A DNA stretch of 64,000 nt, taken from NCBI RefSeq assembly GCF_000512205.2, contig NZ_CP006644.1, positions 4,478,501-4,542,500 on the forward strand. The letters are read 5' to 3'. Positions 4,065 through 51,026 of the stretch are shown here, piece after piece. Source of the DNA: Sphingomonas sanxanigenens DSM 19645 = NX02 (GTDB lineage: Bacteria; Pseudomonadota; Alphaproteobacteria; Sphingomonadales; Sphingomonadaceae). The notes under the pieces are model-generated. The model was not told where the DNA came from, ran no database searches, and saw nothing but the letters and a program-made list of their open reading frames with translations. Position 1 is the stretch's first letter. Every line of letters starts with the position of its first letter. The position numbers and the translations under genes were made by a program.

Positions 4065-4735
4065 AGGAAGTCGACCTTGTCGTAGTGCGCGGGCGGCACG
4101 ATCACTTCCATCCGCTCGCCCAGCAGCGGGCGAAAGCTGGGCCGCGACTTGAGACCGGCATACCAGCGGCTGGTGAGGTCATGCCCGCGCCAGTCGATCC
4201 CGCCGAGATAGTCCGCCACCGAGATGTGCGCCGCCGCGGTCAGATCCGCGAGGCTCAAGGTCGCGCCGGCCAGCCAGTTGCGATGGTCGAGCAGATAATC
4301 GGTATAGTCGAGGTGGCTGACCGCGTTCTTCATCGCCTCCCGCAGCATCTTCGCGTCGGGCGAGGTGCGGTCGACGAGGCGCTTGCGCATCTTCTCGTTC
4401 ATCAGCGGGGCGACGACGTCGCCATAGAATTGCTGATCGAACCAGGTGGTCAGCCGGCGGATCTCCGCGCGGTTCTGCGCGGTGCCGCTGATCATCGGCG
4501 ACTTTTCCTCGGTCTCCTCGAAATATTCGCAGATCGCCTGGCTGTCGATCAGCACGAGGTTGCGGCTATCGTCCGCCATCACCGGGGTCTGCCCGGCAGG
4601 ATTCATGTCGATGAACTCGTCGCGCCGCTGCCACGGCGATTCGCGCACGAGTTCGTAGCCGACGCCCTTCTCACCGAGCAGCAGGCGGATCTTCCGCGAA
4701 AACGGGCACAGCGGGAATTGGAACATCAACCACAT
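4061..4735 (-). CDS. Glutathione S-transferase family protein
   Basis: 224-aa protein with an N-terminal thioredoxin-like domain (FPLCPFSRKIRLLLGEKGV, then NPAGQTPVMADD and DSQAICEYFEE, the cis-Pro loop and glutathione gamma-glutamyl site) and an all-alpha C-terminal domain (WLAGATLSLADLTAAAHISV, the N-capping region). CPFS at the active-site position suggests a cysteine-type class (omega/beta-like). Cytoplasmic; conjugation or thiol-transfer role inferred. Convergent with the isochorismatase-like gene. Confidence 0.9.
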   Translation of the reverse strand: MWLMFQFPLCPFSRKIRLLLGEKGVGYELVRESPWQRRDEFIDMNPAGQTPVMADDSRNLVLIDSQAICEYFEETEEKSPMISGTAQNRAEIRRLTTWFDQQFYGDVVAPLMNEKMRKRLVDRTSPDAKMLREAMKNAVSHLDYTDYLLDHRNWLAGATLSLADLTAAAHISVADYLGGIDWRGHDLTSRWYAGLKSRPSFRPLLGERMEVIVPPAHYDKVDFL

Positions 4736-4805
4736 GGATCGTTCCTGTTAGGACTGAAGCCGGCCGGGTGGAAGCATTAAGATGCGTTAATTGCACCCTG
4801 CGCGA

Positions 4806-5474
4806 TCAGTTGCCGGCGAGCACGCGATCGGCGACGAACGGATTGGTCTGCCGCTCGTAGCCGAAGGTCGAGGTCGGTCCGTGGCCCGGCACGAACGCGG
4901 TCTCGTCCCCCAGCGGCCACAGCTTCTGCGTGATCGCGTCGATGAGATCCTGATGGTTGCCCAGCGGAAAGTCCGTGCGGCCGATCGAGCCCTGGAACAG
5001 CACGTCGCCGACGATCGCCGCCTTCGACGGCGCGTGGTGGAACACGACATGGCCCGGCGTGTGGCCGGGGCAGTGGATCACGTCGAGCACCAGCTCACCC
5101 ACCGTCACCGTGTCGCCGTCCGTCAACCAGCGATCGGGTTCGAAGCAGTGCCCGTCGATGCCATAGGCGCGGCCATCATCCTCCAGCCGGGCAATCCAGT
5201 AGCGATCATCCTCGTGCGGCCCTTCGATCGGCACGCCGAGCTCCTTCGCCAGCACGCCGGCGCGCCCGCAATGGTCGATATGGCCATGGGTGAGGAGGAT
5301 CTTCTCCACCGTCACGCCCAGCTTTTCCGCGGCGGCCTTGAGCTTCGGCAATTCGTCGCCCGGATCGGTAAAGGCACCCCGCATCGTCTTCGTGCACCAG
5401 AGCAGCGTGCAGTTCTGCTGCAGGCGCGAGACGGGCAACAGCGCAAGGCGCATCGGCGGCTGGGATTCGGTCAT
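4806..5474 (-). CDS. MBL-fold metallo-hydrolase (glyoxalase II-like)
   Basis: 222-aa metallo-beta-lactamase-fold hydrolase. The zinc motif THGHIDHCG (His63, His65, Asp67, His68) is followed by HCPGHTPGH, IVGDVLFQGSIGRTDFP and FVPGHGP, the pattern of the small glyoxalase II-like/YcbL group. Likely a thioester or similar hydrolase. The start is the ATG at 5474 (MTESQPPMRL); a second ATG, Met8, is possible. It is divergent from the gene starting at 5574. Confidence 0.88.
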   Translation of the reverse strand: MTESQPPMRLALLPVSRLQQNCTLLWCTKTMRGAFTDPGDELPKLKAAAEKLGVTVEKILLTHGHIDHCGRAGVLAKELGVPIEGPHEDDRYWIARLEDDGRAYGIDGHCFEPDRWLTDGDTVTVGELVLDVIHCPGHTPGHVVFHHAPSKAAIVGDVLFQGSIGRTDFPLGNHQDLIDAITQKLWPLGDETAFVPGHGPTSTFGYERQTNPFVADRVLAGN

Positions 5475-5573
5475 GCGGTCGCAAATGGCCGCTGGCCGGC
5501 GCGGTTGCAAGCGCGGCTCGCCAGCGCGCGCGCGCGCTCGCCTAGGCTGGCGCGGCGCACCGGGGGGAATCGC

Positions 5574-6380
5574 ATGCTGGGCTTGTTCGGGCCGAAACGA
5601 CCGATCGATGGCGACGCGTTCGAATGGATGCTCGCCACGATCAAATGGCTGCTCAGGACCTATGATGGCGTCGCCGGCCTGCACGAGACGCGGCTGGTGC
5701 TGCCGACCACCGATTTCTTCCCGACCTCCGCCGCGACCGGCCATGCCCTGGCCGAGGAGATCTTCGATCGCGTCCGCAGCGCCGCGGGCATGCTCGAATG
5801 GCGCTGCCGCCTGATGCCGGGCGATCCCAGCCGGCCGATGCAGGTCGCACGCGGTTTCGCGTTGAAGCATGAAAGCTTCGCCCCCGCCGGCACCTTCATC
5901 CGCGCCGACGACCGCGACGGCATGCTCGCGATCATCCGCTACAACCCGAACCAGCTCGCCACGCCGCCCACATTGGTCGCCACCTTCGCGCACGAACTGG
6001 CGCATTATCTGCTCTCGGCGGCGCGCGACTATCCGCCGGGCGGCCGCGACCTCAAGGAGCTGGCGACAGACCTGACCGCGGTGTTCCTGGGGTTCGGCAT
6101 CTTCATGGCGAACGGCGCCAAATCCTTCCGCGCGTTCCAGTCGTTCGACGAATCGGGCTGGGAGTCGTCGCGGCAGGGCTATCTGAGCGAGGCCGCGCTG
6201 GTTACCGCGCTTGCGATCGTCGAGCGCCTGTCCGGCCGCTCCCCCAGGGATGCGGCGCCTTGGCTGAAACCGCATCTCGCGAGCGATCTTGCAAAGGCGG
6301 ACGCCTATCTCTCCAGGCGCCACCCCGACCTTGCCCGCGACATCGAGGCGATCGACCTCGACGCCTATCGCGCGGAATAG
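5574..6380 (+). CDS. Uncharacterised protein with HELAH zinc-protease-like motif
   Basis: 268 aa, start chosen at the ATG after a G-rich ribosome-binding site. Residues 140-144 are HELAH, and KELATDLTAVFLGFG follows at about 161-175; the spacing resembles a zincin metallopeptidase with its third ligand (Glu162 or Asp166) one helix later. No signal peptide. A run of hydrophobic residues (TAVFLGFGIFMANG) may be a buried helix. No named family is recognised, and catalysis is inferred only from the motif. Confidence 0.75.
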   Translation: MLGLFGPKRPIDGDAFEWMLATIKWLLRTYDGVAGLHETRLVLPTTDFFPTSAATGHALAEEIFDRVRSAAGMLEWRCRLMPGDPSRPMQVARGFALKHESFAPAGTFIRADDRDGMLAIIRYNPNQLATPPTLVATFAHELAHYLLSAARDYPPGGRDLKELATDLTAVFLGFGIFMANGAKSFRAFQSFDESGWESSRQGYLSEAALVTALAIVERLSGRSPRDAAPWLKPHLASDLAKADAYLSRRHPDLARDIEAIDLDAYRAE

Positions 6381-6390
6381 GCCGGCGCGC

Positions 6391-7806
6391 TCAGCATTCG
6401 ACGACGTTGACCGCGAGCCCGCCGAGCGAGGTTTCCTTGTAGCGTTCGGACATGTCGAGCCCGGTGCGGCGCATCGTCTCGATCACCTGGTCGAGGCTGA
6501 CGCGGTGGGTGCCGTCGCCGAGCATCGCGAGGCGGGCGGCCTCGATCGCCTTGACCGAGCCGACCGCGTTGCGCTCGATGCAGGGCACCTGCACCAGCCC
6601 GCCGACCGGATCGCAGGTGAGCCCGAGATTATGCTCCATGCCGATCTCGGCGGCATTTTCGATCTGCCCGGGCGTGGCGCCCAGCGCCGCGGCGAGCCCC
6701 GCCGCCGCCATCGAGCAGGCGACGCCGACCTCGCCCTGGCAACCGACCTCGGCCCCCGAGATCGAGGCATTTTCCTTGAACAGCGATCCCACCGCGGCGG
6801 CGGTCAGCAGGAAATCCTCCGCCCCCTCCACCGTCGGGCGCGGTGCGAAGCGCTCATAATAGCGCAGCACCGCGGGAACGATGCCGGCGGCGCCGTTGGT
6901 CGGCGCGGTGACGACACGGCCGCCCGCCGCATTCTCCTCGTTCACCGCCAGCGCCCACAGGTTGATCCAGTCGATCACCGAGAGCGGGTCGACCAGCGCA
7001 CGCTCCTGCCGCGCGATGAGCTGCGCGTAGATGCCGGGCGCGCGGCGCTTCACGTTGAGCCCGCCGGGCAGGATGCCGCTGGCGGCGATGCCGCGATCGA
7101 TGCACGCGCTCATCGCCGCGCGGATCGCGGCGAGGCGGGCGGAGACGTCCTCCGCGCTCATCGCCGCTTCCTCATTGGCGCGCATCATCCTCGCGATCGT
7201 CAGCCCGCTTCGATGGGCATGCGCCACCAGTTCGGCGCCCGACGAGAAAGGAAAAGGGACGGCGGCGCCGTCGCCGGCCAGCGGCGGCCCCTGGTTGGCG
7301 CCGAGCGGTGCGCCGGCCGACGCCTGGCGCACCGCGGCCTGATCCTCATCGAGGATCGCGCCGCCGCCGACCGAATAATAAGTGCGGCTCGACACCACAC
7401 CGCCCTCGGCATCGAAGGCGGTGAAGGTCATCGCGTTGCTGTGGAAGGGCAGCCGTTCGCGCTGAAGCAGGCGCAGGTCGCGCGCCTCGTCGAACGCGAT
7501 GCGGTGCGTGCCGGCGAGATCGAGGCTGGCCGTGGTGCGCGCGCGCTCGACGATCGCATCGGCCGCATCGGGGTCGATCCCGTCGGGGGTCTGGCCGGAC
7601 AAGCCGAGCAGCACCGCGCGGTCGCTGGCATGGCCCTTGCCGGTCAGCGCCAGCGAACCGAACAGGGCGGCATCGACGCGGGCGACGCGGGCCAGATCCT
7701 CCCTCAGCCGCCGCACGAAATCGGCGGCCGCGGTCATCGGCCCCATCGTGTGCGAACTGGAGGGACCGACGCCGATCTTGAACAGGTCGAAAGTGCTGGC
7801 GACCAT
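6391..7806 (-). CDS. sdaA: L-serine ammonia-lyase (single-chain, iron-sulfur type)
   Basis: Deaminates L-serine to pyruvate and ammonia. The 471-aa single chain starts with the beta domain ([19 protein letters not shown]) and carries the alpha domain with the cysteines expected to hold the 4Fe-4S cluster: [25 protein letters not shown] and VQVPCIERN. Length and motifs match the bacterial single-subunit form. It stands alone on the minus strand, ending 10 bp from the convergent HELAH gene. Confidence 0.96.
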
Positions 7807-8917: not shown

Positions 8918-9010
8918 GGAGACGTGGGTGAGTGGCTGAAACCAGCGGTTTGCTAAACCGCCGTAGGGGGATTACTCCTACCGAGGGTTCGAATCCCTCC
9001 GTCTCCGCCA
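8918..9010 (+). tRNA. tRNA-Ser (anticodon GCT)
   Basis: 93 nt including an encoded CCA. The acceptor stem GGAGACG (8918-8924) pairs with CGTCTCC (9000-9006), with discriminator G. The anticodon loop TTTGCTAAA gives anticodon GCT. A long variable arm (type II) fits serine. The T-loop GGTTCGAATCC is canonical. It reads AGC/AGU codons. The 3' end is the integration target of the adjacent prophage. Confidence 0.97.
8997..9010 (+). repeat. attL core (tRNA-Ser 3' end)
   Basis: CTCCGTCTCCGCCA at the end of tRNA-Ser, identical to 51013-51026. The tRNA remains complete at the integrase-proximal end, as usual for integration into a tRNA 3' end. Confidence 0.75.
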
Positions 9011-9176: not shown

Positions 9177-10553
9177 GTGCTGACGGACGCGAAGGTGAAA
9201 TCGGCGAAGGCTGCCGACAAGGATTACAAGCTCGGCGACGGTGGCCAGCTCTACCTATTGGTCACCAAGTCGGGCGGCCGGCTCTGGCGCATGAACTACA
9301 CCTACGGCCGGAACGGCAAAGGGCTGCCCGCGCAGAAGACGCTCGCGCTCGGCGCCTATCCCGCCGTTGGGATCGCGGCCGCTCGCAAGGCGCGCGACGA
9401 CGCGAAGGCCCAGCTTAGCGCTGGCCTCGACCCTGCCGTCGAGCGCCGCGTCGCAACGCTGGCCCAGGCGACGGCGAACGAAAACACCTTCGAGACGGTC
9501 GCCCGGCGCTGGCACGCCTTCAAGCTGCCGACCTGGAGCACGGTGCACGCCAAGGATGTGATCGACAGCCTTGCAGCGGACATCTTCCCCGCGATCGGCG
9601 CCGTGCCGATCACGTCGCTCAAGGCCCCTCGCCTGCTGGAGATCCTTCAGAAGGTCGAAGCGCGCGGCGCGATCGAGACCGCGCACCGGCTGCGCCAGCG
9701 CCTATCTGCCATATTCGTCTATGGTATCGCCGCCGGCATCGCAGAGGCGGATCCCGCCGCCAGCCTGGGCAAGGCGCTCAGGCCGGTGCCGAAGTCGAAG
9801 CCGCAGCCGTCGATCATCGATCGGTACCGCGAGCTTGACGACCAGGTGCGCGTGACCAGGCAACTGCTGATCGATTGCGAGGCGGAGCGGTGCCGCGCGC
9901 AGACGAAGCTCGCCATGCGCTTCCTCGCGCTGACCGCGGTGCGGTCGAACGAGCTCAACAACGCGCGGTGGGACGAAATCACCGGTATCGACTGGGCGCG
10001 GCCGGACGCGGCGCACGAAAGGGCGCTGTGGACGATCTCCGCGCAGCGGATGAAGGGCGATCTGGAGCGGAAGGAAGAGACCGACGGTGACCACCTGGTG
10101 CCGCTATCGCGGCAGGCGGTCGATGTGCTGTTCGTCCTGCGGCGGCTGACCGGCGACCTGCAGCTGATGTTCCCCAGCGAGCGGCACCTGCATCGGCCGA
10201 TCTCGGAGAACACCTTGCGCGCCTTGCTGATTCGCGCCGGCTATTATCAGCGGCATGTCCCCCACGGCTGGCGCTCGGCGTTCAGCACGATCATGAATGA
10301 GCGCGCCGATCGCGAGTGGCGTGCCGAAGGCGGCCGGGGCGCGGCGCCCGATCGCGGCATCATTGACCTGATGCTGGCCCATATCCCCGATCAGACGTCG
10401 GGATCGGAGGGCGCCTACAATCGCGCCGCCTATATGGCCCGCCGGCGCGAGCTGGCACAGGAATGGGCGGATCTGCTGGTGGGCGGCATGTGGGAGCCCG
10501 ACGTCCATATCGGGCAGCCGATTCGGTGGGCAGCGACCGGGCCGGGGCGCTAA
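9177..10553 (+). CDS. int: Prophage integrase (tyrosine recombinase, P4 type)
   Basis: 458 aa with an N-terminal DUF4102 arm-binding domain (LTDAKVKSAKAADKDYKLGDGGQLYLLV), a SAM-like core-binding domain, and a C-terminal catalytic domain. Catalytic residues are visible: Arg in LTAVRSNEL, the HGWR box, and nucleophile Tyr414 in GAYNRAAYMARR, with LAHIPD before it. It cuts and joins att sites for integration and, with an excisionase, excision. The start is a GTG after AGGT. The adjacent tRNA-Ser is the expected attB. It is full length and probably active. Confidence 0.95.
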   Translation: MLTDAKVKSAKAADKDYKLGDGGQLYLLVTKSGGRLWRMNYTYGRNGKGLPAQKTLALGAYPAVGIAAARKARDDAKAQLSAGLDPAVERRVATLAQATANENTFETVARRWHAFKLPTWSTVHAKDVIDSLAADIFPAIGAVPITSLKAPRLLEILQKVEARGAIETAHRLRQRLSAIFVYGIAAGIAEADPAASLGKALRPVPKSKPQPSIIDRYRELDDQVRVTRQLLIDCEAERCRAQTKLAMRFLALTAVRSNELNNARWDEITGIDWARPDAAHERALWTISAQRMKGDLERKEETDGDHLVPLSRQAVDVLFVLRRLTGDLQLMFPSERHLHRPISENTLRALLIRAGYYQRHVPHGWRSAFSTIMNERADREWRAEGGRGAAPDRGIIDLMLAHIPDQTSGSEGAYNRAAYMARRRELAQEWADLLVGGMWEPDVHIGQPIRWAATGPGR

Positions 10554-45678: not shown

Positions 45679-45816
45679 ATGACCCCGGAGCCCGAGCCCG
45701 ACGAGCGGCCGGCTGATGCCGACGCCGCCGATGAGCCGCGCCCGCCGCTGACCGATCGCGAGCGAATCCTGTGCGGCCTCGCGCCGCTGATGCCCCCTGA
45801 CGAATGGAGCGTATGA
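45679..45816 (+). CDS. Tiny acidic phage ORF
   Basis: 45 aa, MTPEPEPDERPADADAAD, very acidic and Pro-rich, then LTDRERILCGLAPLMPPDEWSV. Starts 2 bp after the upstream stop and overlaps the amidase start (ATGA); the packing supports its reality. Confidence 0.55.
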   Translation: MTPEPEPDERPADADAADEPRPPLTDRERILCGLAPLMPPDEWSV

Positions 45817-46247
45817 CCATGACGACCCCGGCCTATATGGACCCGAAGAAGATCCACTCCCTGACCCTTCACTGCGCCGCAACGCCCGAGGGCCGCGACG
45901 TGAAGGCCGCGACCATTTCCCAATGGGATATCGCGAAGTTCGGCCAGGTCAGCTATCACATCGTCGTCGAGCTCGATGGGAGCGCGGTGCGCACGCTGGC
46001 CGACGATCGCCGCGGCGCGCACGTCGGCGGCAAGAACACCGGCAACATCGGTATCTGCTACGTCGGCGGTGTCGATGCCCAGAACAAGAAGCCGAAGGAC
46101 ACGCGCACCGAAGCGCAGAAAGCGACGTTGCGCCGCCTCGTCGCCGAATATCGCCAGCGCTACCCCGGCATCGTTGTTCGGGGTCATCGCGACTGGCCGG
46201 GCGTTGCCAAGGCCTGCCCCAGCTTCGACGTGGCGAGCGCGCTATGA
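45813..46247 (+). CDS. Endolysin: N-acetylmuramoyl-L-alanine amidase
   Basis: 144 aa, T7-lysozyme-like amidase (Amidase_2). Zinc-ligand pattern: His in LTLHCAAT near the start, then YHIVVELDG, HVGGKNTGNIGICYVGG, and the C-terminal RGHRDWPGVAKACPSF with His and Cys ligands. It cuts the amide bond between MurNAc and L-Ala. No signal sequence, so it needs a holin. Start overlaps the small acidic ORF. Confidence 0.94.
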   Translation: MTMTTPAYMDPKKIHSLTLHCAATPEGRDVKAATISQWDIAKFGQVSYHIVVELDGSAVRTLADDRRGAHVGGKNTGNIGICYVGGVDAQNKKPKDTRTEAQKATLRRLVAEYRQRYPGIVVRGHRDWPGVAKACPSFDVASAL

Positions 46248-46579
46248 TCGTCGCCTTCCTCATGCGGCTGGGGCTCTCCCAGCGCCTCGCCGGCGTCGCG
46301 GTGTGGATCATCGCCGCGGCGCTGCTGCTGCTCGCCGTCTGGTGGCTGCGCACCAGCGCCTACAGCGCGGGCGTCAGCGACACGGACGCCAAATGGAAGG
46401 CGGCCAGCGAAGAGGTCGAGAAGCAAGCCGAGGTCGCGACCGCGGTTGCGGACAGCGCCGCCGAGGTCCGCGCCGTCGAACACGTCCAGCAGGTCGAGAA
46501 AGAAAAGGAGAAGATCGATGAAGCGGTTCGCGAAGGCAGCAGCCCTCTTGACGTTTTGTTCGGCGGCAACGGCATGTAA
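46244..46579 (+). CDS. Inner-membrane spanin (Rz-like)
   Basis: 111 aa. One N-terminal membrane segment (RLAGVAVWIIAAALLLLAVWWLR) then a periplasmic coiled coil (DAKWKAASEEVEKQAEVAT through VQQVEKEKEKIDEAV). This is the i-spanin plan. ATGA-coupled to the endolysin gene, and its 3' end contains the start of the next gene in another frame, as in Rz/Rz1. Confidence 0.85.
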   Translation: MIVAFLMRLGLSQRLAGVAVWIIAAALLLLAVWWLRTSAYSAGVSDTDAKWKAASEEVEKQAEVATAVADSAAEVRAVEHVQQVEKEKEKIDEAVREGSSPLDVLFGGNGM

Positions 46580-46856
46580 CGGCCGGCCGGCGTTCCAGCC
46601 GATCAAGCCGTCGGCGGAGCGCCTGGTCTGCGAGACGCGCGGCCTGCGGCCGACGATTCCCCCTGAGTACGTCATTGACTGGTCGACGGTGACGACGGTC
46701 GAGCAGGCGCGGGCAGAGCACCAGCGCTACGTCGCGTCGATCCGCACGCGCGAGGGCGTGGTCGCTGGCTACGTGCTGAAGGTGGAGGACAAGCTGTTCG
46801 TGTGCTCCAACAACACGCAGTGGTTGCGGGAGTTTTTCGGCGCGCTGCCTAATTAG
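46518..46856 (+). CDS. Outer-membrane spanin-like protein (Rz1 position)
   Basis: 112 aa, starting inside the Rz-like gene (62-bp overlap). Signal peptide with a possible lipobox, MKRFAKAAALLTFCSAATAC; Cys20 would be lipidated, but position -3 is Ala rather than Leu, so this is uncertain. The mature part (PAFQPIKPSAERLVCE, then a globular C-terminus) is larger than a classic Rz1. By position the o-spanin partner for outer-membrane disruption. Confidence 0.7.
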   Translation: MKRFAKAAALLTFCSAATACNGRPAFQPIKPSAERLVCETRGLRPTIPPEYVIDWSTVTTVEQARAEHQRYVASIRTREGVVAGYVLKVEDKLFVCSNNTQWLREFFGALPN

Positions 46857-46869
46857 CGAGCGTAGACCG

Positions 46870-46878
46870 TTTTTTTTT
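46870..46878. terminator. T-tract at the end of the late operon
   Basis: Nine consecutive T residues 14 bp after the last lysis gene, between it and the convergent cargo gene. Only a weak hairpin precedes it, so intrinsic termination is plausible but not proven. Confidence 0.4.
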
Positions 46879-47468
46879 CAAATTCCCGCGTCACGCAGCT
46901 TACTCAGAAGCTCGTTGGGGTCCTCGGAAAATACGACAAGGGGAATCATGTCTTCCGCAAGCTTATTTCGACGCTTGCTTTGAGCCTTTTTTATGGCACT
47001 TCGCGTTCCCGCTGGTATTGTGCCTAGCATATCTATGTGATGTAATTTGCCGCGGTCGTCCGTGGCATAAACCCCGAACCACTTTTGATCATCTTCTATG
47101 TACGCTCGGAGGGTTTCGACGCTCACAACGATGGCTCCAACTAGAACCCTAGTCTCGACTTCCGTTGACGTGAGATCGTCAATTGTCTGCAGGATTTCGG
47201 CGTCTGAAGCGCCTTGCCGTATCATGCTAAGGCCCATCGAATAAATATGCGTCAGCTTACCGGCAAGGATCGTGGAGGTTTCTTCATTGTAGCTGTCAGG
47301 AGACGTTAAGATGCGGGCCATGAGTTCGCCTGACTGAACTCCGGGGCCTCCGACTTCAGTTAAGGAATAAGGCTCACACGCACATTGAGGGAAGGCGGCG
47401 TCAAGTGCGACCGCCCTCTCATAGTCGGCTGCGTGGTTGAACGTATCCCTGCAGGCCTCGGCCGACAT
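46878..47468 (-). CDS. Cargo cassette gene 3: unknown protein
   Basis: 196 aa, no signal peptide. Sequence alternates helical and beta regions (AGKLTHIYSMGLSMIRQGASDAEILQTIDDL; VLVGAIVVSVETLRAYIEDDQKWFGVYATDDRGKLHHID; EDMIPLVVFSEDPNELLSKLRDAGI). Start overlaps the stop of gene 2 (TAATG). Base composition is clearly less GC-rich than the phage around it. No family recognised. It forms one transcription unit with the next two genes. Confidence 0.75.
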   Translation of the reverse strand: MSAEACRDTFNHAADYERAVALDAAFPQCACEPYSLTEVGGPGVQSGELMARILTSPDSYNEETSTILAGKLTHIYSMGLSMIRQGASDAEILQTIDDLTSTEVETRVLVGAIVVSVETLRAYIEDDQKWFGVYATDDRGKLHHIDMLGTIPAGTRSAIKKAQSKRRNKLAEDMIPLVVFSEDPNELLSKLRDAGI

Positions 47469-47998
47469 TAAGCACCATAGGTGCTAATATAGTCGACCAA
47501 TGCCGGCGGAAGCTCCAGACCGTCAAACGCGACATCCTCATCACTTGGAGCATCATCGTCCGAAAAGAAATAGTCAAACTTTCCGGATTCAGTCATGATA
47601 ACTTCGCCGCTACATGGCTTGGCGTAGACAAACATCGGGTGGCCCTCCGCCGTCAGTGTCACCTGAGGGGCGCGATAGACGGAAAGAAGGCTAAACAAAC
47701 GAACGGCACCATCAACGGTCGCCGGATCCGGTGCTCTCGATCCCTCGGAGTCCCAATTGTCCGGCCAGTCCCGAAAGGCGCGCAGGCGCTCTATCCCAGC
47801 AAGCGCAGGCGAATCCACCAATGTATAATCTGTAGGAACGCGATTGCTCGTCGACGCGCCGCGAACTCTTTCACGCCTGGAGTCGCTGAGAAGAATCCTG
47901 TTGCTTCTCGTTTGAACCTCGGGCTGCCACGGCAGATCCGTGTACCAGACGTATGCAGAGGGGATATAGCTCTGGGTGATGGGTGCGTATGCGTCCAT
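47468..47998 (-). CDS. Cargo cassette gene 2: unknown protein with WDSEGSRAP motif
   Basis: 176 aa. The middle holds IERLRAFRDWPDNWDSEGSRAPDPATVDGAVRLF followed by APQVTLTAEGHPMFVYA; this motif (LP..WDGEG...P....I..A), then a beta strand reading like a ligand-binding face, recurs in many uncharacterised proteins of accessory regions. The C-terminus is acidic. Lies 5 bp after gene 1 and one base into gene 3. Function unknown. Confidence 0.75.
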   Translation of the reverse strand: MDAYAPITQSYIPSAYVWYTDLPWQPEVQTRSNRILLSDSRRERVRGASTSNRVPTDYTLVDSPALAGIERLRAFRDWPDNWDSEGSRAPDPATVDGAVRLFSLLSVYRAPQVTLTAEGHPMFVYAKPCSGEVIMTESGKFDYFFSDDDAPSDEDVAFDGLELPPALVDYISTYGA

Positions 47999-48003
47999 TT
48001 TTT

Positions 48004-48873
48004 TTAACTCCCCAGCGATATCATGTCGGTCGCCTCGCGTGTCAAGACCTCTGCCAAGCGCTTCTTAAGTGTCAGGTGCGTCTGATCTAGGCTCGAAAGT
48101 ATGGATTCGGCCTGAGAAAGCTCAGCGGCGCGATCTGAATTGAAGTCGGTCACTTGCTCGGCTTCGAAAGTTCTAATCGTGATAGTTCGCCGTATACCCA
48201 CCGGACCGTTTGCATCTGCTACACCGATGTCCAGGTTAACGAGATTGCGCGTGACGGCCGATATTTTCTCGAACCATCCGGAATGCGAATGCCAAGGCTC
48301 CCGTCGATGAAATGCTTTTGAGCCGAAGCAGTTGGATTTTCTATCGATTATCAAGCCGCAGTCTTGAGGCTCGGGCAAAGTGGCATAGAAAAAATCTGTA
48401 TATTCAAGACCAATTTGACTGGTCTGAACAGCGGACGAAATGATCGGCATAGATGTCGAGAGAAATTGCGAAAATTGCTCCCTGAATGCTACCCAGCGAG
48501 TGTATGACGTCGTTTCGAGCCTCAGCGCGTCGTTGGCGACCGCCAGTGCTTGCACCACCGTAGTGCCTTGTAGGTCCTGAAAGACGACGCCTGATTCTGC
48601 CTCAGCGGTTTTCCGCGGCGCTAGGCCAGGCTGCACCTCAACTGCGATGTGGTGCATCGGCTCCTCGCGCACGAGCCCAACCCTGCGCGCCGGTCCTCGC
48701 AATGCGTCGATCGTTTTGCGAAGGGTAAGCGACGTCATCGGTTCGGAGAAGGTTACGAACGCAACAGCTTTCTGAATCGCGTGCGCGGGGTGAATAGGTG
48801 CCCAAAACGTGCGCGCTGCTCCACCCGGCGGCAGCTGGCCACCGGCGTGATAGTTTCCAAATCGATTCGCCAT
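48004..48873 (-). CDS. Cargo cassette gene 1: TIGR04255 family protein
   Basis: 289 aa from the ATG (MANRFGNYHAGGQLPPGG); a GTG at 48948 would add 25 residues. Recognised as TIGR04255-like from overall layout: N-terminal AP...AV.FVTF, central SQIGLEYTDFFY, and a C-terminal helical hairpin (AESILSSLDQTHLTLKKRLAEVLT). The family is widespread, often in mobile regions next to other unknown genes, and has no proven function. Promoter-proximal gene of the cassette; lower GC than the phage. Confidence 0.75.
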   Translation of the reverse strand: MANRFGNYHAGGQLPPGGAARTFWAPIHPAHAIQKAVAFVTFSEPMTSLTLRKTIDALRGPARRVGLVREEPMHHIAVEVQPGLAPRKTAEAESGVVFQDLQGTTVVQALAVANDALRLETTSYTRWVAFREQFSQFLSTSMPIISSAVQTSQIGLEYTDFFYATLPEPQDCGLIIDRKSNCFGSKAFHRREPWHSHSGWFEKISAVTRNLVNLDIGVADANGPVGIRRTITIRTFEAEQVTDFNSDRAAELSQAESILSSLDQTHLTLKKRLAEVLTREATDMISLGS

Positions 48874-49078
48874 CACAGAACAGCGCTGCTCTGGCGAAAA
48901 GGTTGCGCCTTCATTCGTTCGTTCCTTGACCTCACGGGGAAATGGCACTTCTGTCGCAAGCTTGCAAGCAAGGCCGGTGGTGCAGCCGCATCTCTCCGAG
49001 GCTAGCGGCTACCGAACCCGTTTTCACTGAGCGACCAAACTGCGCAGGTTTTGCGCTTACACACGCAATTCGTGCGCT

Positions 49079-50538: not shown

Positions 50539-50919
50539 ATGTTCCACAGTCGAGTCCGGCCGAACGTGGCCTCCAGCTTCCTGCTTCCCGTGGTCGGGGA
50601 GCGCTTCGATAATGCCGACGGCAGCAGCCGGCAGGAGGAGATCCGCCGCTGCCGACCGGGCGAGGCGGTGTGGCTTGAGCGTGAGCCATCGAACCGCTTC
50701 GACCCATCCGCCGTGGCGGTGTTCTCCGATCGCGGTTTCCAGCTCGGCTATATCGGGGCCGACCGCTGCGGCTGGATCGGGTCGAAAATCGACCGGGGCT
50801 TCAACGTCGATGCGGTGGTTGAGGGCATTTCTGGCGATGTCAGCGGCGCCCTGCCCTGCCGCTTGACCATAAGGCTTCGGCTGACGATCACGGACACAAC
50901 CGATGCCCCGATGGGGTAA
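50539..50919 (+). CDS. HIRAN-domain protein
   Basis: 126 aa, the HIRAN domain alone: LPVVGERFDNADGSSRQEEIRRCRPGEAVWLEREPSNRFDPSAVAVFSDRGFQLGYI. HIRAN domains bind DNA ends or damaged DNA and are usually fused to helicases such as HLTF; stand-alone bacterial copies often lie in phages and defence regions. Last gene before attR. Confidence 0.85.
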   Translation: MFHSRVRPNVASSFLLPVVGERFDNADGSSRQEEIRRCRPGEAVWLEREPSNRFDPSAVAVFSDRGFQLGYIGADRCGWIGSKIDRGFNVDAVVEGISGDVSGALPCRLTIRLRLTITDTTDAPMG

Positions 50920-51012: not shown

Positions 51013-51026
51013 CTCCGTCTCCGCCA
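51013..51026 (+). repeat. attR core
   Basis: CTCCGTCTCCGCCA, identical to the tRNA-Ser end at 8997-9010 and in the same orientation. A GTTC also matches at the T-loop offset upstream. It lies 94 bp after the last prophage gene and gives a normal element length of 42,030 bp. Confidence 0.72.

Follow-up and report, generated by a model that had tools for sequence, protein, structure and literature searches.

Background

Behind the lysis genes of a prophage of Sphingomonas sanxanigenens, and antisense to the late operon, lie three tightly packed genes of comparatively low G+C content, the first of which encodes a protein of the TIGR04255 family. Do these three genes form a functional unit, and what would such a unit do? 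A sequence-only reading of the region had proposed that the three proteins act together and may be a superinfection-exclusion or defence system. Here, the window means the whole stretch of DNA that was analysed (64 kb).

Results

Position and composition of the cassette

The limits of the prophage are suggested by a 14-bp repeat of the 3' end of a tRNA-Ser gene and by the integrase. The putative attL core (8997..9010, + strand) is the last 14 bp of tRNA-Ser(GCT), the integrase gene adjoins this tRNA (9177..10553, + strand; phrog_1 integrase, E 1.6e-40), and the putative attR core (51013..51026, + strand), likewise found by repeat comparison, is an exact 14-bp repeat of attL. A second 14-bp match of equal length appeared in the same comparison; length alone thus proves nothing, and the assignment rests on where the repeat lies, adjacent to the integrase and at the end of the tRNA gene. 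The 3' part of the late operon, on the + strand, encodes a holin-like protein, an amidase/endolysin (45804..46247; phrog_822 amidase, E 9.2e-49) and an Rz-like spanin (46244..46579; phrog_4297, E 4.6e-7), as assigned with PHROGs, plus one ORF without a PHROG match, the last on this strand, which stops at 46856, 21 bp before the antisense cassette.

The cassette (46878-48948) consists of three minus-strand genes. Gene 1 (48004..48948) encodes P0003, a TIGR04255 protein of the WHSHSGWF (WHxHxGWF) subfamily with 314 aa if read from GTG 48948; gene 2 (47468..47998) encodes P0002 (176 aa), a W(D)xxGS / WDGYGA-like protein and candidate antitoxin or immunity protein; and gene 3 (46878..47468) encodes P0001 (196 aa), a candidate toxin/effector with the signature E48xxxR52, GxS81xxR84 and H144. 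The shared strand, the 5-bp gap between genes 1 and 2 and the 1-bp overlap of genes 2 and 3 are as the sequence-only reading had described them, and so is the AT-richer composition. The G+C content is 0.545 (54.5% against about 65% around), and windows of 2071 bases elsewhere in the 64 kb average 0.652 (sd 0.023; z = -4.8 for the cassette), the lowest non-overlapping one reaching 0.5915. The cassette had been placed at the prophage end; it does follow the lysis genes, but is not at the very end, as some 2 kb with small ORFs separate it from the putative attR. The absence of structural-phage resemblance, also claimed earlier, was borne out: the lone PHROG row at E<=1 among the three proteins was a 12-residue match of P0003 (E 0.26). 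A scan for promoters and terminators gave no excess over shuffled sequences, and none of P0001-P0003 has a strongly hydrophobic segment (highest 19-residue mean, 1.31). The S. sanxanigenens genome has the cassette in a single copy, and a 41,743-bp contig in IMG/VR encodes three proteins identical to P0001-P0003.

The TIGR04255 protein (gene 1)

P0003 matches the NCBIfam model TIGR04255 (sporadTIGR04255) with 44.4 bits over residues 56-306, above the curated cut-off of 30, in agreement with the identity previously given to gene 1; the WHxHxGWF subfamily to which it belongs is divergent within the family. The NCBIfam entry gives no function. The AF2 model of P0003 has a mean pLDDT of 84.5, with 209 of the 314 residues at 90 or more, and residues 1-38 are disordered in it. 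Since the gene 1 product of the nearest relative, a locus in a Sphingorhabdus MAG (L049), also has a short N-terminus, gene 1 may well start at ATG 48873 (residue 26, giving 289 aa) rather than at GTG 48948, the start taken earlier. By eye, neither start is preceded by a clear ribosome site.

The best Foldseek match of the P0003 model was AdoMetDC (E 3.4e-4, TM 0.25) and the best VIA match was arginine kinase (Z 7.8, rmsd 4.0 over 185), which falls in the non-specific range of the tool; a clear structural relative was thus found with neither. The model looks two-halved by its strands and helices, but the halves have no profile similarity to each other, so the description refers to the look of the secondary structure only. 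SecB stands at rank 40 of the Foldseek list (prob 0.33). Its relationship to TIGR04255 was demoted to a rival reading, because hhalign comparison of the two, whole or by halves, stayed at control level (with 20 of the 22 SecB sequences found); SecB is also absent among the 50 VIA matches listed, which excludes nothing.

The middle protein (gene 2)

With P0002, no row at E<=1 was obtained from Pfam, NCBIfam, PHROG or PADLOC, and a search of 289 genomes with P0002 alone returned its own copy and six matches at E 0.001-0.01. P0002 scores 61 bits against a profile made from the remaining 12 gene 2 rows. When the gene 2 family was compared by hhalign with the middle proteins of other TIGR04255 operons, the probability was 98% (E 2.9e-13), against 0.0-0.4% for unrelated pairs; judging from these profiles, the two are one superfamily. 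For genes 1, 2 and 3, respectively, 1 of 19, 10 of 32 and 3 of 28 proteins have a 17-residue stretch with a mean hydropathy of at least 1.6, P0002 being without one; in most of the gene 2 proteins, shuffling the sequence gives stretches that are just as high (1/32 below 0.05).

The candidate effector (gene 3)

P0001 likewise gave nothing beyond chance in Pfam, NCBIfam, PHROG or PADLOC, and no consistent Pfam match was found for the relatives of genes 2 and 3. Searches for sequence relatives of the three families in PDB gave rows at E 0.14-0.53 or none. By hhalign, the gene 3 family aligns with the small proteins encoded third in other TIGR04255 operons at 94.7% (E 5.7e-8; unrelated pairs, 0.0-0.4%), and on this measure the two types are one superfamily. 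Among 30 aligned third proteins, some of which were assigned by their position and by eye, H144 is conserved in 30/30, E or D at position 48 in 30/30, S81 in 29/30, R52 in 26/30, G111 in 25/30 and R84 in 23/30. The conserved polar residues form an active-site-like set, D/E-x3-R / S / H.

The AF2 model of P0001, made from 13 sequences, has a mean pLDDT of 93.6 and a pTM of 0.88. Foldseek found no match at E<=0.001 for it in PDB or BFVD (viral). After re-alignment to 999 PDB chains with VIA, 10 chains reached Z 2; among the matches listed (9 of the 10), six are TreTu (the best; Z 3.1, rmsd 4.4, 94 aligned), MTX (Z 3.0), Xre-RES (Z 2.7), two ParT (Z 2.2 and 2.1) and Arr-2 (Z 2.1), and the other three are Rpd3S, Mcf and RizA. 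TreTu, MTX, Xre-RES, ParT and Arr-2 are all ADP-ribosyltransferase-fold proteins, and the concentration of such rows in the model comparison is suggestive, at weak scores. Identification of gene 3 as an ADP-ribosyltransferase by sequence was tried and rejected: hhalign with RES (PF08808) gave 0.1-0.3% (14 of the 25 RES matches aligned), and the Pfam scans contained no RES row.

Recurrence of the three-gene unit

Four aligned sequences of the WHxHxGWF subfamily were used to scan GTDB genomes, which gave 20 loci, and viral contigs, which gave 7, the own prophage included. The three genes were found in the same order and on the same strand in the Sphingorhabdus MAG, Gemmobacter, Rhizobium, Tardiphaga, Undibacterium and others, and this co-occurrence in unrelated contigs outside the phage upholds the earlier proposal that the genes belong together. 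The closest relative, L049, has identities of 35, 28 and 49% for genes 1, 2 and 3. Partners of the gene 2/3 type in this order and strand are present at 10 of the 20 genome loci (L049, L050, L051, L052, L054, L055, L056, L061, L064 and L066), and a different middle gene with a HEPN-like third gene at 7 (L053, L057, L058, L059, L060, L063 and L067); L062 and L065 (contig ends) and L068 (short gene 1) stand outside the partner count. The three-gene operon is thereby kept in 17 of the 17 judgeable genome loci of the subfamily. Among the viral contigs, L011, L071, L073 and L080 have the gene 2/3 type, and L069 and L072 the HEPN type, where L011 is the same place as L051 and L069 the same place as L057.

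The partner types were assigned first by eye and then with leave-one-out profiles from which near twins were also removed. These recovered 13/13 gene 3 proteins (61-111 bits), 13/13 gene 2 proteins (25.6-100 bits, the weakest being L051) and 7/7 proteins of the HEPN type (74-96 bits); L053 was found at E 1e-13 by a HEPN profile built without it. One of the three HEPN-type proteins scanned passes Pfam PF05168. On a tree of the subfamily (21 of the 22 rows, L061 being left out, and L062 labelled HEPN-type from genes 1-2, with its third gene beyond the contig), the HEPN and gene 2/3 labels need two changes, against a mean of about 7 for shuffled labels. The long-branched L053 is involved in one of these changes, and the true number may be one. 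Partner type and TIGR04255 type have thus largely been inherited together, and at least one switch has occurred.

Surveys from gene 3 and from TIGR04255

When 398 genomes of the phylum were searched for gene 3, 8 had it, among them the own genome; 5 of the 8 were new, sequences from the own genome, G467 and G694 having been part of the query alignments. Gene 2 is adjacent on the same strand in 8/8, and TIGR04255 lies upstream in 5/8; further middle-protein matches were obtained in G491, G512 and G596. No TIGR04255 gene was found adjoining the pair in G508, G552 and G555, nor adjoining a weaker pair in G473, and in G555 an AAA-like ATPase gene stands in its place (partly by eye). Because of these four pairs, TIGR04255 is not essential to the gene 2-3 pair: genes 2 and 3 are the inner pair and TIGR04255 is a frequent third member.

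Taken from the other side, TIGR04255 was found in 30 of the 398 genomes (32 matches, two without a locus; 29 loci read). A relative of gene 2 is present in 8 of the 29 loci (L020, L030, L034, L042, L043, L044, L045 and L047), a count that includes the weak L043 (profile E 0.007) and not L038, which is equally weak. At the remaining loci the partners are HTH, HEPN-like or unknown, or there is no partner. By tblastn, P0001-P0003 had no match in plasmids, and the L066 relatives had none in plasmids and phages.

Genomic neighbours

Outside the prophage, copies of the operon lie in phage contigs, in chromosomes and on a plasmid, which shows it to be mobile. In L011 the genes before the cassette are, by eye, endolysin-like and holin-sized, and here they share its strand. 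A Mycobacterium plasmid with the L014 protein has, in a row, a relaxase (MobF), TIGR04255 and two hypothetical genes; the middle gene of the operon is recovered with the gene 2 profile made from related operons (E 1e-13), and the third, for which there was no gene 3 profile match, was placed by position and eye. The L049 cassette lies beside uvrA (Pfam), with no phage gene recognised by eye in its 8.4 kb, and uvrA also flanks L018 and L146 (by eye). For a sample of flanks (54 proteins from 16 loci, chosen by eye and paired with their matches by eye), the matches listed include 3 phage integrases and 2 HsdM-like proteins, and many of the other proteins are housekeeping ones. HsdM-like genes lie on both sides of L061 (by eye), the one locus of the sample with a clear restriction-gene setting, and in G705 an integrase-like gene is directly 3' of the cassette (by eye).

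Relation to known systems

P0001-P0003 had no match in PADLOC; in particular, P0002 misses PDC-M32A and P0001 misses PDC-M32B at E<=1, and gene 1 proteins scanned singly (P0003 and 5 relatives) had none either. The gene 2 relatives L014 (E 4.5e-10) and L018 (E 4.1e-8) do match PDC-M32A, over the C-terminal third of that model (about 260-370 of 375), whereas L029 does not; the third protein of L018 gives a weak match to PDC-M32B (E 0.0046), and that of L029 gives none. With 48 cassette proteins at E<=0.1, 5 matched the best M32A model (PDLC04575), 3 the best M32B model and 2 HEPN_IX (best 3.6e-4). PDC-M05B and PglZ were matched by single members of the same set. A PDC-M32A search of 142 genomes gave one match, the middle protein of a TIGR04255 operon in G070, so the N-terminal part of PDC-M32A, about 250 extra residues, was not met among these genomes. 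Because the genes of the related TIGR04255 operons match both the window's genes 2 and 3 (hhalign) and PDC-M32 (PADLOC), the inner gene 2-3 pair would touch, through relatives, a candidate that PADLOC already lists. PDC-M32 is listed for a Sinorhizobium meliloti prophage in PMC12429752, the one paper that a full-text search for its name found, and the present cassette is prophage-borne as well.

CmdTAC, which protects against T-even phages, is made up of an ADP-ribosyltransferase, its antitoxin and a SecB-like chaperone (PMC9519451, PMC11618068), a capsid protein drawing the chaperone off the antitoxin so that the ADP-ribosyltransferase is freed (PMC11618068). The CmdTAC toxin depends on its antitoxin for folding (PMC11618068). 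The cassette shares with this and other toxin-antitoxin-chaperone systems the three-gene plan, a constant partner, differing toxins and possibly an ADP-ribosyltransferase toxin; it differs from CmdTAC in gene order, and no PADLOC match points to CmdT or CmdA. With Xre-RES / ParST it has in common the weak resemblance of the gene 3 model to RES and ParT; profile similarity to RES is absent, gene 2 differs, and the cassette has three genes, not two. A full-text literature search for TIGR04255 by name found no paper, and in main texts searched as TIGR04255 / PDC-M32 neither the three-gene unit nor its variant with a HEPN gene nor the signature of conserved residues was found described.

Discussion

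We read the cassette as a conserved, mobile, prophage-borne three-gene unit; that it is of toxin-antitoxin(-sensor) type, most likely for abortive anti-phage defence, we hold to have about an even chance of being right. Its conservation and mobility are observed in the loci above. The toxicity, the enzymology and the defensive role, which we infer, could be as follows. Gene 3 would be the toxic effector, perhaps an enzyme of the ADP-ribosyltransferase fold acting through R52, S81 and H144, and gene 2 would keep it inactive. The TIGR04255 protein would be an exchangeable sensor or chaperone that either lends stability to gene 2 or detects a phage product; exchangeable, because one subfamily pairs with genes 2 and 3 or with a different protein and a HEPN-like gene. 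On infection by a second phage, the arm of TIGR04255 and antitoxin would be lost or diverted, the toxin would be freed and the host cell stopped, a mechanism of release modelled on CmdTAC as set out in PMC11618068 and PMC9519451. The defence proposal of the sequence-only reading is supported indirectly by the PDC-M32 matches of the relatives of genes 2 and 3 and by some loci near integrases, a relaxase and type I restriction genes, and the many housekeeping flanks speak against it. More tentatively, TIGR04255 may be the two-halved sensor or chaperone of a large modular class of mobile defence systems with swappable antitoxin-effector pairs (here a new ADP-ribosyltransferase-like toxin with a D/E-x3-R, GxSxxR, H signature; elsewhere HEPN-like or unknown ones).

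Other readings explain parts of the same evidence. That the three genes are chance neighbours without joint function is scarcely credible: gene 2-3 pairs without TIGR04255 do exist (3 of 8 genomes plus G473), but this reading is contradicted by co-occurrence, namely the operon in every judgeable locus of the subfamily and gene 3 beside gene 2 in all eight genomes. Cargo specific to this phage, for superinfection exclusion or lysogenic conversion and acting at entry or at the envelope, would suit the position after the lysis genes on the opposite strand, which is frequent for prophage cargo; it is very improbable, with the cassette also in a contig without recognised phage genes nearby (L049), a relative on a plasmid, and no strongly hydrophobic segment in P0001-P0003.

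Two further readings seem unlikely to us, and about equally so. In one, the cassette is a module for regulation or stress, working in signalling or post-translational modification, that has no connection with phages and is mobile by happenstance; the sporadic distribution fits, as do the chromosomal copies beside housekeeping genes, three of them at uvrA, whereas the finds in the prophage, viral contigs, the plasmid and near integrases, and the tie of relatives to PDC-M32, do not. In the other, the cassette is a toxin-antitoxin-chaperone system of CmdTAC type in another order, with TIGR04255 as the SecB-like chaperone, gene 2 as the chaperone-addicted antitoxin and gene 3 as the ADP-ribosyltransferase toxin. 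Here the three genes, the common partner and the swappable effectors are as in CmdTAC (PMC9519451, PMC11618068), and the SecB row of Foldseek, the fold hints for gene 3 and the greater frequency of hydrophobic stretches in gene 2 point the same way; against it are the control-level profiles of TIGR04255 and SecB, gene 2 stretches mostly not above shuffles and the lack of any in P0002.

The proposed toxin-antitoxin(-sensor) unit bears on a widespread family whose function is absent from NCBIfam. The conserved unit, the swappable effectors and the PADLOC candidate together allow a direct test of the role of TIGR04255, and gene 3 may represent a new effector family with defined residues to mutate.

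Partner genes of TIGR04255

A different three-gene type of TIGR04255 operon was found in loci L023, L026, L033, and L048 of other genomes or contigs, in which the TIGR04255 gene was followed by that of a 171-208-aa protein (HTH_3 passed in the Pfam scan for L026) and then by a gene whose longer product carries a motif resembling 'SHPCSLLN/THACTVV'. A further partner type was represented by L024, L027, and L039, where TIGR04255 preceded a 102-123-aa ORF and the gene of a 190-212-aa protein containing 'LSN(T/S)CD(M/V)S'. The protein downstream of TIGR04255 in L022 and L019 shared 'LA(W/F)HH...GKGLTCATF' and possibly has a cysteine-peptidase-like fold; the Pfam scan of the L022 protein gave no match.

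Neighbouring genes

In L151 (2559-3594), HigA-like and Phd-like antitoxin genes, recognized by eye, adjoined the TIGR04255 operon. Just inside the putative attR of the window, the protein encoded at 50539-50919 appeared by eye to be HIRAN domain-like, and matched phrog_27141 (a PHROG of unknown function). In L146 (4389-6311), a 474-aa AAA-like ATPase gene (by eye) preceded the gene 2-3 pair (candidate antitoxin and candidate toxin/effector), at the usual place of TIGR04255.

The uvrA gene immediately adjoined TIGR04255 or gene 2-3 loci in three different genomes: L049, the nearest relative, from a Sphingorhabdus MAG (4704-7709; assigned by Pfam), L018, a related TIGR04255 operon (3-1250; by eye), and L146 (282-3479; by eye). 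Because these three loci from different genomes lie directly at uvrA, a recurrent insertion spot for TIGR04255 and gene 2-3 loci is suggested beside this gene.
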